From Paludibacter sp. (GTDB lineage Bacteria; Bacteroidota; Bacteroidia; Bacteroidales; Paludibacteraceae): DNA of 54,303 nt. Shown here piece after piece: positions 27,470 through 54,303 of this stretch; the first letter of the stretch is position 1, and each line of letters starts with the position of its first letter. The notes beneath the pieces were generated by a model that was not told where the DNA came from, did not search any database, and saw nothing but the letters and a program-made list of their open reading frames with translations. Made by a program: the position numbers and the translations under genes. The DNA is taken from contig JARKQF010000269.1 in the NCBI GenBank assembly GCA_029973975.1, positions 1 through 54,303 of the forward strand. The letters are read 5' to 3'.

Positions 27470-27534
27470 CAAACAGATAGAAATGAGATAAATAAACACA
27501 AAATAAAAATTCAAAAATTCAAAAAAAAAGTAAA

Positions 27535-50250: not shown

Positions 50251-50970
50251 ATGATAAGAATATCAGAGAATCAGTACAACGGAATCATCGTCGACCATGC
50301 AAGCCTTCCGGAAGATATAACCGAATTTAAATCAGAAATAACACAATTATTAGCATCAATAGACGACAAAAATCTGATGTGGATTAAAATTCCAATCAAA
50401 AAAGCTGCTCTTATCCCTGTACTCACTACGTATGGTTTTGAGTTTCACCATTGTGACGAGCGAAATCTTATGCTTGTCAAAAAAATAAACCCCGAAGCAT
50501 TTGTCCCGGCAACAAAAAACTACATCGTGGGCGTGGGTGCAATCGTATTCCACGAGCAGAAATTATTGGTTATCAAAGATCGTTTCTCAAACGGCTATAA
50601 ATTACCTGGGGGACATATTGAGAAAAACGAATTAATAAAAGAAGCACTCACAAGAGAAGTGTTTGAAGAAACTGGTATTGACATTCGTTTTGAATCTATC
50701 ATGAACATCGGACATTTTCACAACGGCCAGTTTGGAGAATCAAATCTCTATCTCGTGTGTACCGCACAAGCCTTATCTTACGAAATAAAAATACATGATA
50801 ACTCAGAGATTCTCGACGCAAAGTGGATAAATCCAACAGAGTTTCTGCATTCAGAAGAGGTGAGTGCCTACAATAAAAGTATTGTGGAAGCTGCAATCAA
50901 CAACAAAGAATTGAAACTTACCGAGCAACAGATTAAATTGAGAGTGGCAAACGGAGAAGTATTTTTCTGA
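50251..50970 (+). CDS. NUDT6-like Nudix hydrolase
   Basis: A 239-residue protein with two parts. Residues 1-85 form the pre-Nudix domain known from NUDT6/GFG proteins (NQYNGIIVDHASLPEDI, LMWIKIPIKKAALIPV, YGFEFHHCDERNLMLVKK). Residues 90-230 form a Nudix domain with the box G121-x5-E127-x7-R135-E136-x2-E139-E140-x-G142-I143. The substrate of such proteins is not settled. The gene stands alone with its own promoter and is the last chromosomal gene before the inserted element. Confidence 0.93.
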   Translation: MIRISENQYNGIIVDHASLPEDITEFKSEITQLLASIDDKNLMWIKIPIKKAALIPVLTTYGFEFHHCDERNLMLVKKINPEAFVPATKNYIVGVGAIVFHEQKLLVIKDRFSNGYKLPGGHIEKNELIKEALTREVFEETGIDIRFESIMNIGHFHNGQFGESNLYLVCTAQALSYEIKIHDNSEILDAKWINPTEFLHSEEVSAYNKSIVEAAINNKELKLTEQQIKLRVANGEVFF

Positions 50971-51309
50971 TCGTTAATTTAAAAAGCCTTGAAACGAATA
51001 AAGGTACATTAATCTTTTTATAATTAACAACACCTTTCTTTCATATCCCAAGAGGACATAACACTTTGATATCCTTATCAACGTCTCAATTTTTTATTTT
51101 GGTGGATGTAACAAAATTACATCGACGATGTGCGTTTGGTGCAACGTTGATTTGTGCATCAAAATAAAAGATTTTTTGGAAAAAACAGAAGATATGTTAG
51201 TCAAAATCTACCATTGAAAAATATTAATAGGGTGGAGTTTGGGAGAAAGATCCCCGTATTTGATTAGTAGAATATGGTTGATTTTGCTTGTTTAACTTGT
51301 TCATGAGTT

Positions 51310-51347
51310 AAAACGAAAACAGCTAATCACTAGTTGATGATTAGCTG
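51310..51347 (-). terminator. Minus-strand terminator, probably of an interrupted tRNA gene
   Basis: 10-bp perfect arms (51347-51338 and 51329-51320) with an 8-nt loop, followed on the minus strand by TTTTCGTTTT. Confidence 0.8.
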
Positions 51348-51365
51348 CGTTATTAATCTACTCTG

Positions 51366-51380
51366 TTGTCCCACCAGGAC
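51366..51380 (-). other. Putative attachment site: 3' end of a tRNA gene
   Basis: On the minus strand the 15 bp read as tRNA positions about 60-73: the T-loop end and T-stem (TCCTGG-like) and the acceptor strand TGGGACA with discriminator A. The rest of a tRNA does not follow toward the right, where the element begins, while a terminator lies 19 nt to the left. This is the standard remnant left when a tyrosine recombinase inserts at a tRNA 3' end. A U1-A72 pair would fit tRNA-Gln, with low certainty. Confidence 0.6.
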
Positions 51381-51464
51381 ACCTAAATATCATTTTTCAT
51401 TTATTCCCACTTAATCAAAAATATATTGTAAACATACTGTTTTACTGTGTTTTAAAAAGTTTTC

Positions 51465-51490
51465 TAATTAAGTAAGATAAGACTTAATTA
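51465..51490. repeat. Inverted repeat TAATTAAGT/ACTTAATTA
   Basis: 9-bp perfect arms, 51465-51473 and 51482-51490, 8 nt apart, between the attachment site and the integrase promoter; possibly a recombinase arm site or an operator. Confidence 0.5.
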
Positions 51491-51507
51491 AGTTAAATAT
51501 GAAATTA

Positions 51508-51549
51508 TTCTTACCATTATTCTTACCATGCATTGTTTTATGGTAAGAA
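51508..51549. repeat. Three copies of TTCTTACCAT before the integrase gene
   Basis: Two direct copies at 51508-51517 and 51520-51529, spaced by a full helical turn (12 nt start to start), and one inverted copy at 51540-51549. The last ends 5 nt before the -7 box of the integrase, so the set would cover its -33 region. Confidence 0.7.
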
Positions 51550-51554
51550 ATTTT

Positions 51555-51562
51555 TATATTTG
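51555..51562 (+). promoter_or_regulatory. -7 box TATATTTG for the integrase gene
   Basis: A TAnnTTTG match 30 nt before ATG 51593 and just downstream of three repeated words. Confidence 0.6.
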
Positions 51563-51592
51563 TTGTGTGTTTAACCAATCATACATATTACA

Positions 51593-52972
51593 ATGGCAAA
51601 AATTAGTTTTTATCTTACCAACCCACGAGCGAAAAGTGAAACCCCATTATTCTGTTTTATCAATTACGGACTTTATTCTATTGAATCAGGAAAGAAAAAG
51701 TATTTACCTTTAAAATACTATACAACCATTTCAATCAGGCCTGATTTATGGAATAAGGAATTAAACAGGGCAAAAGAATCAAACAAGTGGGCAGAACCCG
51801 ATACTTTTGATATAAGTATAGAGGCAGTTAAAAAATCTGCAAAAGAGAACTACAACGCAATCAATAAGAAAATTGAAGATTTTATTTCAACTACTAAAAA
51901 ATTAATCAACGACTTAACAACGGATGGGATTCCACCAACACATGAAAAACTAAGGATTGAATTAGACCGGATACATAGGCCTGAAAAAGTTGTAACAACG
52001 TGTGAAATCCCACGGGAATTATTTTCATTTATTGATTACCTGATACAAACATCAAACAACAAACAGTCAACACTAAAAAGTTACAAGGTTGTCAAAAAGA
52101 ATTTGCAGGACTACCAATCAGCAAAAAAGATAGCATTAAATTTCAACAGTATTGATATTGACTTTTATAATTCGTTTATTGAATTTCTGACAAAATCAGG
52201 ACTATCAAAAAACACAATCGGAACAAGGATTAAGATATTAAAAACGTTTTTGAGTGAGGCAAACGACAGGGGAATCAATGTCCCGGATGATTACCGCAAA
52301 AGAACCTTTAAGAAACCGAATGAAGAAACCGATTCCATTTATCTGAATGAAAAGGAATTGATGCAAATTTTCAATTTAGAAAAGAATCCTAAAAGTATAG
52401 AAATCATTAGCCGGGAACATCATTCCGATAAATTACCTGAATATCTGACAAAGGTCAGGGATTTATTTTTAGTTGGTTGTTATACCGGATTACGTTTTTC
52501 AGACTTAACACAACTAAGAAAAGAAAACATAACAGCTGATGAAACCATAAACATCAAAACCCAAAAAACGAATCAGAATGTTGTTGTACCTATTCACCCA
52601 ATCACAAGGCAAATACTGGAAAAATACAACTATCAATTACCAAGGGCAATCAGCAATCAAAAATTCAATGTATATCTGAAAGAAATTGCACGTATTGCCG
52701 GTATTAATGAAAAGATTACAACGGAAATCACAAAGGCAGGGTTTAAAGTTGCAACGACAACGGAAAAACACAATTTAGTAACCAGTCACACCGCCCGCCG
52801 GTCATTTGCCACCAATGCATTTTTAGCAGATATGCCGAGTATCTCTATCATGAAAATTACCGGTCATAAAACAGAGTCTGCATTTATGAAGTATATCAAA
52901 ATGAGTGCTAAGGACAATGCCACAAAAATGAAATCACACAAGTTTTTTAATCCAATGTTAATTGCTAAATAA
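51593..52972 (+). CDS. Tyrosine recombinase (integrase)
   Basis: A 459-residue site-specific recombinase. N-terminal arm-binding part at about 1-100 (YLTNPRAKSETPLF), a SAM-like core-binding domain at about 140-225, and a catalytic domain with a complete set: R301 (YTGLRFSDL), K323 or K325, H399 and R402 (HTARRSF), H425 (TGHKTES) and nucleophile Y434 (MKYIKM). The length and domain order are those of Bacteroidetes integrative elements and transposons. It lies next to the probable attachment site and is transcribed away from it. Confidence 0.95.
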   Translation: MAKISFYLTNPRAKSETPLFCFINYGLYSIESGKKKYLPLKYYTTISIRPDLWNKELNRAKESNKWAEPDTFDISIEAVKKSAKENYNAINKKIEDFISTTKKLINDLTTDGIPPTHEKLRIELDRIHRPEKVVTTCEIPRELFSFIDYLIQTSNNKQSTLKSYKVVKKNLQDYQSAKKIALNFNSIDIDFYNSFIEFLTKSGLSKNTIGTRIKILKTFLSEANDRGINVPDDYRKRTFKKPNEETDSIYLNEKELMQIFNLEKNPKSIEIISREHHSDKLPEYLTKVRDLFLVGCYTGLRFSDLTQLRKENITADETINIKTQKTNQNVVVPIHPITRQILEKYNYQLPRAISNQKFNVYLKEIARIAGINEKITTEITKAGFKVATTTEKHNLVTSHTARRSFATNAFLADMPSISIMKITGHKTESAFMKYIKMSAKDNATKMKSHKFFNPMLIAK

Positions 52973-52978
52973 AACAAA

Positions 52979-53887
52979 ATGAGGCGAGAGTACAGTACAT
53001 TCGAACAACTTTTTAATGATGCAATTACATTTAATGCAATTGAAACACCAAAATCAGATTTTGAAAAAAAAATTGCATTTTCAATTCATGATGTTGGTTT
53101 TACACAGTTTTTACAACAATATAAAAATTTAAAATATGGTGATACAGAGCATTACGATAGGCTACTTACCAAAGATATGTTCTTAGAGTATCTTACATAT
53201 CAAAAAAACAAGGAGTTTGAAAAAAAAACTGAGTATGTAATAGAAAAGAAGAGTTGGCAAATCAGCAATGACAACAATCAAAAATATAAGATGGATAATA
53301 TAAATGAACGTCTAATATATTTGAACACCAACAAAGAAAAGTATGAGTATTTACTAAACTTAAAATTAGAATTCATTAAAACTCATGGAATCTATAACGA
53401 ACATTTTGATAAAATATTTGGATACTGGAAAAAAACCATACCTGAACAAATTGACACTTTAATAAACTTATACAAAGAAATATCTAAACTTGAAAGGAAA
53501 ACCGAGACTAATGAAAAAGAGGCAAATTTTAAAGATTTATTCAAAGATGAATATCATGATAAAATTGATTCTTTTAAAGGATGGCTGAGGAATAATGAAT
53601 TTATAAATGAAAATAATCAATTATTAGATTTACCAACAAATTTTGCACGCATCTATTATTTATTAAAGTATCAAGGAATAATAAAACCAAATATAAAAGA
53701 CTCAGTTGGAATTAAAACATATTTTTCTGATTTTCAATGTGAAGTGAAAGAAAAAATCAATCCTGATTCCAAGAATAAGGAAATTACACGCAAAACGGTT
53801 ACCAATCAAAATGCAAAATCAGACTTAATATATTACCCGGACAATTCACCTATCAACAATGAAGATATAATTAAACTATTTTCCTAA
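52979..53887 (+). CDS. Unrecognised protein of the inserted element
   Basis: A 302-residue, lysine-, asparagine- and glutamate-rich soluble protein, predicted mostly helical, with a possible coiled coil at 160-185 (LYKEISKLERKTETNEKEAN) and a compact block near 198-232 (SFKGWLRNNEFI ... FARIYYLLKYQGIIKP). I recognise no family. It starts 6 nt after the integrase stop, so it is likely in one operon with it. Base composition is clearly more AT-rich than the chromosome. Position suggests a recombination or element-maintenance role, unproven. Confidence 0.7.
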   Translation: MRREYSTFEQLFNDAITFNAIETPKSDFEKKIAFSIHDVGFTQFLQQYKNLKYGDTEHYDRLLTKDMFLEYLTYQKNKEFEKKTEYVIEKKSWQISNDNNQKYKMDNINERLIYLNTNKEKYEYLLNLKLEFIKTHGIYNEHFDKIFGYWKKTIPEQIDTLINLYKEISKLERKTETNEKEANFKDLFKDEYHDKIDSFKGWLRNNEFINENNQLLDLPTNFARIYYLLKYQGIIKPNIKDSVGIKTYFSDFQCEVKEKINPDSKNKEITRKTVTNQNAKSDLIYYPDNSPINNEDIIKLFS

Positions 53888-53965
53888 TCTTAACTAAAAA
53901 ACAATCTTTTTATTTCCATTTTTCCAAAACGGAATTTTAGGAAATACCGACACAAACAAGTCTGG

Positions 53966-53973
53966 TAAGTTTG
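53966..53973 (+). promoter_or_regulatory. -7 box TAAGTTTG for the helix-turn-helix gene
   Basis: A TAnnTTTG match 23 nt before ATG 53997. Confidence 0.5.
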
Positions 53974-53996
53974 CGTAAACTTTTAATATAAAGAAT

Positions 53997-54303
53997 ATGC
54001 AAACAGAAATCATTTTATCAGGAATCAGTTTTGAGCAATTACAAAACAGCATCAAAACAATCGTACAAGATGAAGTACAAAAAATTGTAGTTGGTTTACC
54101 GCAACAACCAACGGAACCCACCCCGGAATTAATCACCCGAAAAGAAACAGCACAAATTTTAGGCATTTCATTGGTCACATTGAACGAATGGACTAAAACT
54201 GGTGTAATTCCCGCCCAGCGGATTGGAACACGTGTAAGATACCGCAAAACGGACATTTACAATTCTTTGAAAGATGTTGAAACTCTAAAATACAGGAGGG
54301 CAT
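53997..54303 (+). CDS. Excisionase-like helix-turn-helix protein (cut by window end)
   Basis: The first 102 residues are visible. A helical N-terminus (SGISFEQLQNSIKTIVQDEV), a proline-rich linker near 38-45, then a MerR/excisionase-type HTH_17 domain: LITRKETAQILGISLVTL and WTKTGVIPAQRIGTRVRYRK, near 47-88. Proteins of this build stand in most Bacteroidetes integrative elements near the integrase and serve as excisionase or regulator. No stop has been reached at the window edge, but the usual length suggests that it ends soon after. It has its own promoter box. Confidence 0.85.
   Translation, partial: MQTEIILSGISFEQLQNSIKTIVQDEVQKIVVGLPQQPTEPTPELITRKETAQILGISLVTLNEWTKTGVIPAQRIGTRVRYRKTDIYNSLKDVETLKYRRA

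Follow-up and report, generated by a model that had tools for sequence, protein, structure and literature searches.

A small integrative element at the 3′ end of a tRNA-Gln(TTG) gene in a Paludibacter draft genome, and a family of relatives with paired arm repeats

Results

Genes and sites at the left end

The window analyzed here is the entire contig G000:C99 (54,303 bp), one of 358 contigs in a draft assembly of Paludibacter sp. It ends 2.94 kb (~2.9 kb) inside an integrated element. The genes and sites around the left end of this element are collected in Table 1.

Table 1. Features at the left end of the element and in its host flank (window coordinates)
Feature	Position	Strand	Basis
NUDIX hydrolase gene, left host flank	50251-50970	+	Pfam NUDIX 5.3e-18; shares a contig with tRNA-Gln in G026 and G031
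Near-core TATCCCAAGAGGACA, possibly decayed left end of an older element	51044-51058	+	2/13 mismatches to core; weak
Terminator-like hairpin and T-run, outside the element	51310-51347	-	Perfect 10-bp stem 51320-51329/51338-51347, then TTTTCGTTTT
attL core TCTGTTGTCCCACCAGGA	51362-51379	.	18/18 bp match to C27:38757-38774, 3′ end of tRNA-Gln
Inverted repeat TGTCC-N5-GGACA around core	51367-51381	.	Presumed core-type integrase sites, read from sequence
Arm-type repeat pair TTCTTACC, 12 bp apart	51508-51527	+	Recurs within C27:38830-38852
Arm repeat, inverted copy ATGGTAAGAA	51540-51549	-	Sequence repeat listing
Box GTTTAACCAA	51569-51578	+	≤1 mismatch at 9/11 left ends and 3/9 right ends, including C27
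Tyrosine recombinase (integrase), 459 aa, complete	51593-52972	+	Phage_int_SAM_5 4.9e-15, Phage_integrase 1.1e-11, both above Pfam cut-off
302-aa protein	52979-53887	+	No Pfam or PHROG match; relatives have a 184-310-aa gene between int and HTH gene
HTH_17/MerR-like, excisionase-like protein	53997-54303	+	Pfam HTH_17 3.5e-10; PHROG HTH and excisionase matches; reaches contig end

On the minus strand, positions 51380-51366 read GTCCTGGTGGGACAA, the T-stem and acceptor end of a tRNA. Running ARAGORN, we found three tRNAs in the window, the nearest of which ends at 27470, and no tRNA body around 51366-51380. The first-pass annotation of this DNA had described just such a tRNA end without a body, with repeated sites and a complete tyrosine recombinase on the other side of the core, and both descriptions were confirmed. 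The integrase contains the motifs TGLR (from residue 298), KTQK (322), HTARR (399), GHKT (424), and KYIKM (433), which we take to hold the catalytic residues R-K-HxxR-H-Y. Comparison of the integrase with the PDB gave no convincing match. Counted along the minus strand, the hairpin stem starts 18 nt beyond 51366. Together with its T-rich tail, the hairpin folds at -15.7 kcal/mol, a value reached by none of 60 dinucleotide shuffles.

The right end and the intact tRNA on another contig

The genome contains a single exact copy of the 17-mer TTGTCCCACCAGGACAC. When up to 2 mismatches are allowed, one further site appears, the end of a tRNA-Gln gene on contig C27; two others match at 3 mismatches. 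Genome searches led to C27 twice, through the arm repeats (23/23 bases) and through the core 17-mer (2 mismatches). An intact tRNA-Gln(TTG) gene lies at C27:38700-38771 (= L009:5701-5772) and has a copy of the core, C27:38757-38774, in its 3′ end. An intact tRNA had been predicted at the far end of the element, and this gene is that tRNA. Likewise, the search for a second core outside the window succeeded, on C27 rather than on the window's own contig. The earlier reading of the core as a tRNA end held, while its proposed length of 15 bp did not; the core common to both ends is 18 bp (51362-51379).

Read in the orientation of the window, C27 presents element DNA, arm repeats, a terminator hairpin, the 18-bp core, and then the remainder of the intact tRNA-Gln(TTG). 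The contig stops 1.86 kb past the core, and this stretch is AT-rich, with the same 12-bp-spaced arm pair as the window. The G+C contents of the two element ends are 0.306 and 0.298, and those of the host parts are 0.404 and 0.395. By pattern search, the genome has two tRNA-Gln genes, of which only the one on C27 has the TTG anticodon. Another tRNA-Gln(TTG) copy could still exist beyond the assembly, because the assembly is 85.7% complete. A third match to the arm block, on C161 (43 bp), had no element gene nearby by eye.

Among the genome contigs searched, none overlapped either broken end (that of the window or that of C27), and searches for the middle of the element came up empty. A ~390-aa protein carried by some relatives had no match in the genome, in a search run without a positive control. 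If the element is as long as five relatives of 5.7-6.4 kb, the missing middle would be ~0.9-1.6 kb, and more if it resembles the longer ones. The same genome carries a second integrase of the family at G000:C343:26255-27478 (L057:6256-7485), with 43% identity. By eye, GTCCCC words 12 bp apart lie upstream of it, which a stricter spaced-pair scan missed.

Relatives without the element

We searched for the left flank in 48 genomes of the genus, our own included, and obtained matches in three others, one of which (G041, 26 bp) was left out. At E 1e-60, the NUDIX protein was present in 3 of the 48 genomes, again counting our own. The proposed comparison with element-free relatives gave the expected arrangement: G031 and G026 hold both flanks on one contig. 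In G031, 1.55 kb separates the NUDIX gene from tRNA-Gln, and this interval contains one unrelated 411-aa gene; in G026, the distance is 10.4 kb and filled with unrelated genes. None of the ORFs listed between the two landmarks in either genome encodes such an integrase. On the tRNA side, both have a tyrosyl-tRNA synthetase-like gene as on C27, and G026 additionally shares the lipoprotein-like gene of C27 (genes named by eye). Homology of G026 to the window ends at 51027. G031 and G026 are other species whose tRNA-adjacent sequence is unlike that of the window, and we found no element-free relative with the window's own intergenic flank.

A family of elements in tRNA-Gln and tRNA-Arg genes

The integrase was matched (E 1e-3) in 112 of 200 genomes of the family, including its own. 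We examined the eight closest besides its own (L049, L050, L053, L054, L055, L056, G001, and G002), together with L060 and L062 from other collections. Both ends were present in all eight, five in tRNA-Gln and three in tRNA-Arg; in the DNA examined, L060 and L062 showed no second end. The target is tRNA-Gln(CTG) in L049, L055, and L056, tRNA-Gln(TTG) in L053 and L054, and tRNA-Arg(CCT) in L050, G001, and G002. Measured from core start to core start, the elements are 6132 bp (L049), 10421 bp (L055), 5745 bp (L056), 6413 bp (L053), 6329 bp (L054), 6431 bp (L050), 10924 bp (G001), and 36412 bp (G002) long. Thus, seven of the eight span 5.7-10.9 kb, and G002 is a 36-kb composite. In the six relatives with both ends in one piece, the distance from the start of the left core to int is 216-241 bp, and the two ends have a stretch of 15-19 bp in common. 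A TGTCC-N5-GGACA-type inverted repeat, perfect or imperfect and least kept in L053, lies upstream of all ten other integrases.

The genes follow a common order: int comes first, then a variable gene (184-310 aa), an HTH protein (mostly ending in KYRRA), replication-like or unknown genes, and variable cargo. Profile searches recognized a DnaA-like/DnaD-like replication protein in L056 and a weakly endonuclease-like protein in L054. Scanning subsets of the ORFs of the eight relatives' elements with Pfam (10, 8, 8, and 10 proteins per scan), we recognized a relaxase in none of the 36 proteins. The 10.9-kb tRNA-Arg element of G001 (G001:C23:12763-23704, L073) carries an EcoRI-type methylase and a GmrSD/HNH nuclease. 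The 36-kb composite in tRNA-Arg of G002 (G002:C1:2360192-2396621, L071 and L072) carries type I restriction-modification and PrrC. Between its second gene and its HTH gene are ~18 kb of genes that look host-like by eye.

A conserved protein of ~390 aa, with a cysteine motif near its C-terminus, is encoded at L050:10774-11943, L053:3535-4704, and L063:5206-6384. The L050 and L063 copies had no Pfam match. A profile of five such proteins retrieved nothing convincing from the PDB; the best hit (E 0.027) was a small zinc-binding chain. The predicted structure of the L063 copy has a mean pLDDT of 33.8.

Arm repeats follow the N-terminal domain of the integrase

All 9 right ends and all 11 left ends contain a pair of 8-bp words spaced by 12 bp. 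The words fall into three classes, TTCTTACC, TTGTCCCC, and TTTCACCC, each word within one mismatch; the classes were defined on these same ends, and L060 and L062 are degenerate. Comparing the classes with the integrases, we find that arm class tracks identity in residues 1-90, and neither the SAM nor the catalytic domain. Identity within classes exceeded identity between classes by 31 points, and only 4 of 5000 permutations gave as large a difference, in a test that ignores descent. The corresponding numbers were 708 of 5000 for the SAM domain and 1271 of 5000 for the catalytic domain. As an example, the L062 integrase is 84% identical to that of the window in the catalytic domain and 43% identical in residues 1-90, and it has another arm word.

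Extending the search to 17 more distant integrases, we found a spaced pair in eight and none in nine. L025 and L027 have one word in common, and L032, L034, and L039 share another. We also collected the sequences downstream of tRNA-Gln in the genus, 83 rows that gave 81 distinct sequences after two were merged as identical. Arm-class pairs occur in 6 of these 81, three of which are elements already named; therefore, tRNA-Gln genes do not carry them as a rule. Searching for spaced repeats regardless of class, with one short sequence dropped, we counted 4/80 at spacing 12, 5/80 at spacing 11, and no more than 2 at any other spacing between 8 and 18, a search too strict to serve as a census.

Terminators at the two ends

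Directly after the tRNA, a hairpin stronger than all 60 shuffles was present in five of six tRNA-Gln elements and in none of three tRNA-Arg elements. The tRNA-Gln exception is L055, where 9 of 60 shuffles were as strong. Therefore, an element in tRNA-Gln usually supplies the rebuilt tRNA with a terminator. Outside the left core, a hairpin of such strength was found at 7 of 11 ends. Of the empty sites, G026 has a terminator-like hairpin after tRNA-Gln, and G031 has none by the same score (8/60).

The hairpin outside the window's core had been taken for the old terminator of the tRNA. Its perfect stem, terminator-like form, and position bear out part of this claim. Its identity as the tRNA's own terminator is putative. 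No relative was seen to carry it after tRNA-Gln; by eye, it was absent from all 81 distinct downstream sequences. A loose scan gave a single match (L086), outside the first 90 letters. The hairpin at 51320-51347 may have served the tRNA before the insertion, or it may be the terminator of an earlier element, the situation suggested for L053. In L053, TTCTTACC arms at positions 290-309, unlike the element's own class, lie left of the core beside a terminator; they resemble the right end of an earlier insertion on which the present one is stacked, in the same tRNA-Gln.

We had also considered the host's tRNA-Gln terminator as the template from which those of the elements were copied. This idea was dropped, as the CCTGATTATC...GATAGTC hairpin type is present with and without arm repeats. 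In the genus, it follows tRNA-Gln at 4/4 strict arm sites and at 21/76 others.

Discussion

Insertion at tRNA-Gln(TTG) and the alternatives

The 3′ end of a tRNA gene is a well-known landing place of such mobile elements. We conclude, with a probability of about 0.95, that a mobile element used its own tyrosine recombinase to enter the 3′ end of tRNA-Gln(TTG), and that 51362-54303 represents the left end of this element, where the integrase gene lies. An 18-bp core at both ends, a whole tRNA at the right end, the same arms, and the same low G+C all argue for this insertion. So do the two element-free relatives that join the flanks on one contig and the eight related elements that share its anatomy. 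Within the limits of a draft assembly, these grounds establish insertion at tRNA-Gln. A prediction made from raw sequence was borne out on a separate contig, and C99 and C27, two contigs of a draft genome, are now linked through the element.

In favor of a chance resemblance to a tRNA end, with no insertion at all, the 15-mer pattern is expected 0.83 times per window at ≤3 mismatches. This reading is refuted by the exact match that recurs at a real tRNA-Gln with matching arm repeats, and by the repetition of the pattern in eight relatives. As the bin is fragmented (85.7% complete, 5.7% contamination) and the two ends come from different contigs, the left end in the window and the right end on C27 could in principle be parts of two distinct but related elements, whether native to the genome or brought in by contamination. 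The presence of other, more distant family integrases on C343, C231, and C91 also lends this reading some room. We nevertheless regard it as very improbable, given an 18/18 core, an identical 23-bp arm block, the same G+C, a single tRNA-Gln(TTG) found, and flanks on one contig in G026 and G031.

Stacked insertions are a less remote alternative, in which the hairpin would not be the host's old terminator but would mark the right end of an earlier insertion at this tRNA, now decayed (51044-51361). G026 flank homology stops at 51027, just before the near-core at 51044-51058, and the relative L053 itself looks stacked, with intact other-class arms (290-309) and a terminator left of its core. Only 2 of 1000 shuffles of the flank contained as good a near-core; however, these were mononucleotide shuffles and the near-core was chosen after it had been seen. 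Moreover, no clear arm pair is seen in 51044-51361. We therefore consider stacking doubtful, though a genuine contender for the origin of the hairpin.

Proposed mechanism

For the element inserted at tRNA-Gln(TTG), we propose that the core-binding and catalytic domains of the integrase bind the inverted core-type sites. By analogy with IntCTnDOT-type integrases as treated in the available part of PMC8138268, its N-terminal domain would bind the 12-bp-spaced arm repeats. The HTH protein would direct excision. Integration would swap the last part of the tRNA for an identical copy and add a terminator of the element's own; in this way the tRNA gene, the sole tRNA-Gln(TTG) found in the assembly, would remain functional. 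This suggests that such islands may replace a tRNA's terminator as well as its 3′ end. The readable link between N-terminal domain and arm word is useful when the ends of elements are annotated and when the arm-site specificity of Bacteroidota integrases is tested.

A broader reading is that the family consists of minimal tRNA-Gln/Arg islands without relaxase or capsid genes, which are helper-borne and in which the arm-binding domain and both arm sets are swapped as one block. In the excised circle, the core is flanked by the right and left arms, and the start of int adjoins the left arms. We offer this as speculation that is probably wrong in at least some part. If block exchange did occur, elements stacked at one tRNA would get separate excision addresses.

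Comparison with known elements

This kind of insertion is already known. As described in the accessible portion of PMC5704250, NBU1, NBU2, MTnPi4, and Tn6031 are integrative mobilizable elements of Bacteroidetes that target tRNA-Leu, -Ser, -Leu, and -Pro, respectively. They share with the present family a tyrosine integrase and insertion at a tRNA 3′ end, whereas the present family targets tRNA-Gln or tRNA-Arg. According to the same text, the Bacteroidetes elements of the NBU1 kind known so far, which are few, have a relaxase gene of their own; in contrast, no relaxase was recognized among the proteins scanned from the present family.

Integrases of the IntCTnDOT subgroup of Bacteroidetes have an N-terminal arm-binding domain (missed by Pfam), a core-binding domain, and a catalytic domain, as set out in the part of PMC8138268 available to us. 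The integrase of the window, likened to them by domains and motifs, has a SAM-type core-binding domain and a catalytic domain with R-K-HxxR-H-Y motifs. It has the first catalytic arginine (TGLR), which that paper describes in NBU1 but not in CTnDOT. PMC12324425 deals with marine archaeal elements, which are unrelated to this family.

We found nothing on this element family in the literature searched, a search that left many journals outside. The tRNA-Gln/Arg target, the modularity of the arm domain, and the replacement of the terminator are family features that we did not meet in that literature, as far as the accessible parts of its papers go.

Phage satellites and PICI-type islands are small and carry an integrase, an HTH regulator, replication-type and small unknown genes, and, in some, defence cargo. 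The present family has a comparable gene set. It differs in that no packaging or capsid-remodelling gene was established in it; one relative, L055, encodes a tape-measure-like protein, and the resemblance of the DUF5681-type proteins to phage proteins is only weak. The L055 protein (937 aa, L055:11025-13838) lies in the 10.4-kb element and best matches a family of unknown function, and no other phage structural gene was recognized among the L055 proteins scanned. This protein and the IMG/VR contig named below are circumstantial signs of packaging by a helper phage. The fecal phage record L132, in which a distant copy of the ~390-aa protein occurs, was rejected as evidence of packaging, as it also contains a tRNA and genes judged bacterial by eye. 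L131 is a second such record. An IMG/VR contig carries int together with the ~390-aa protein.
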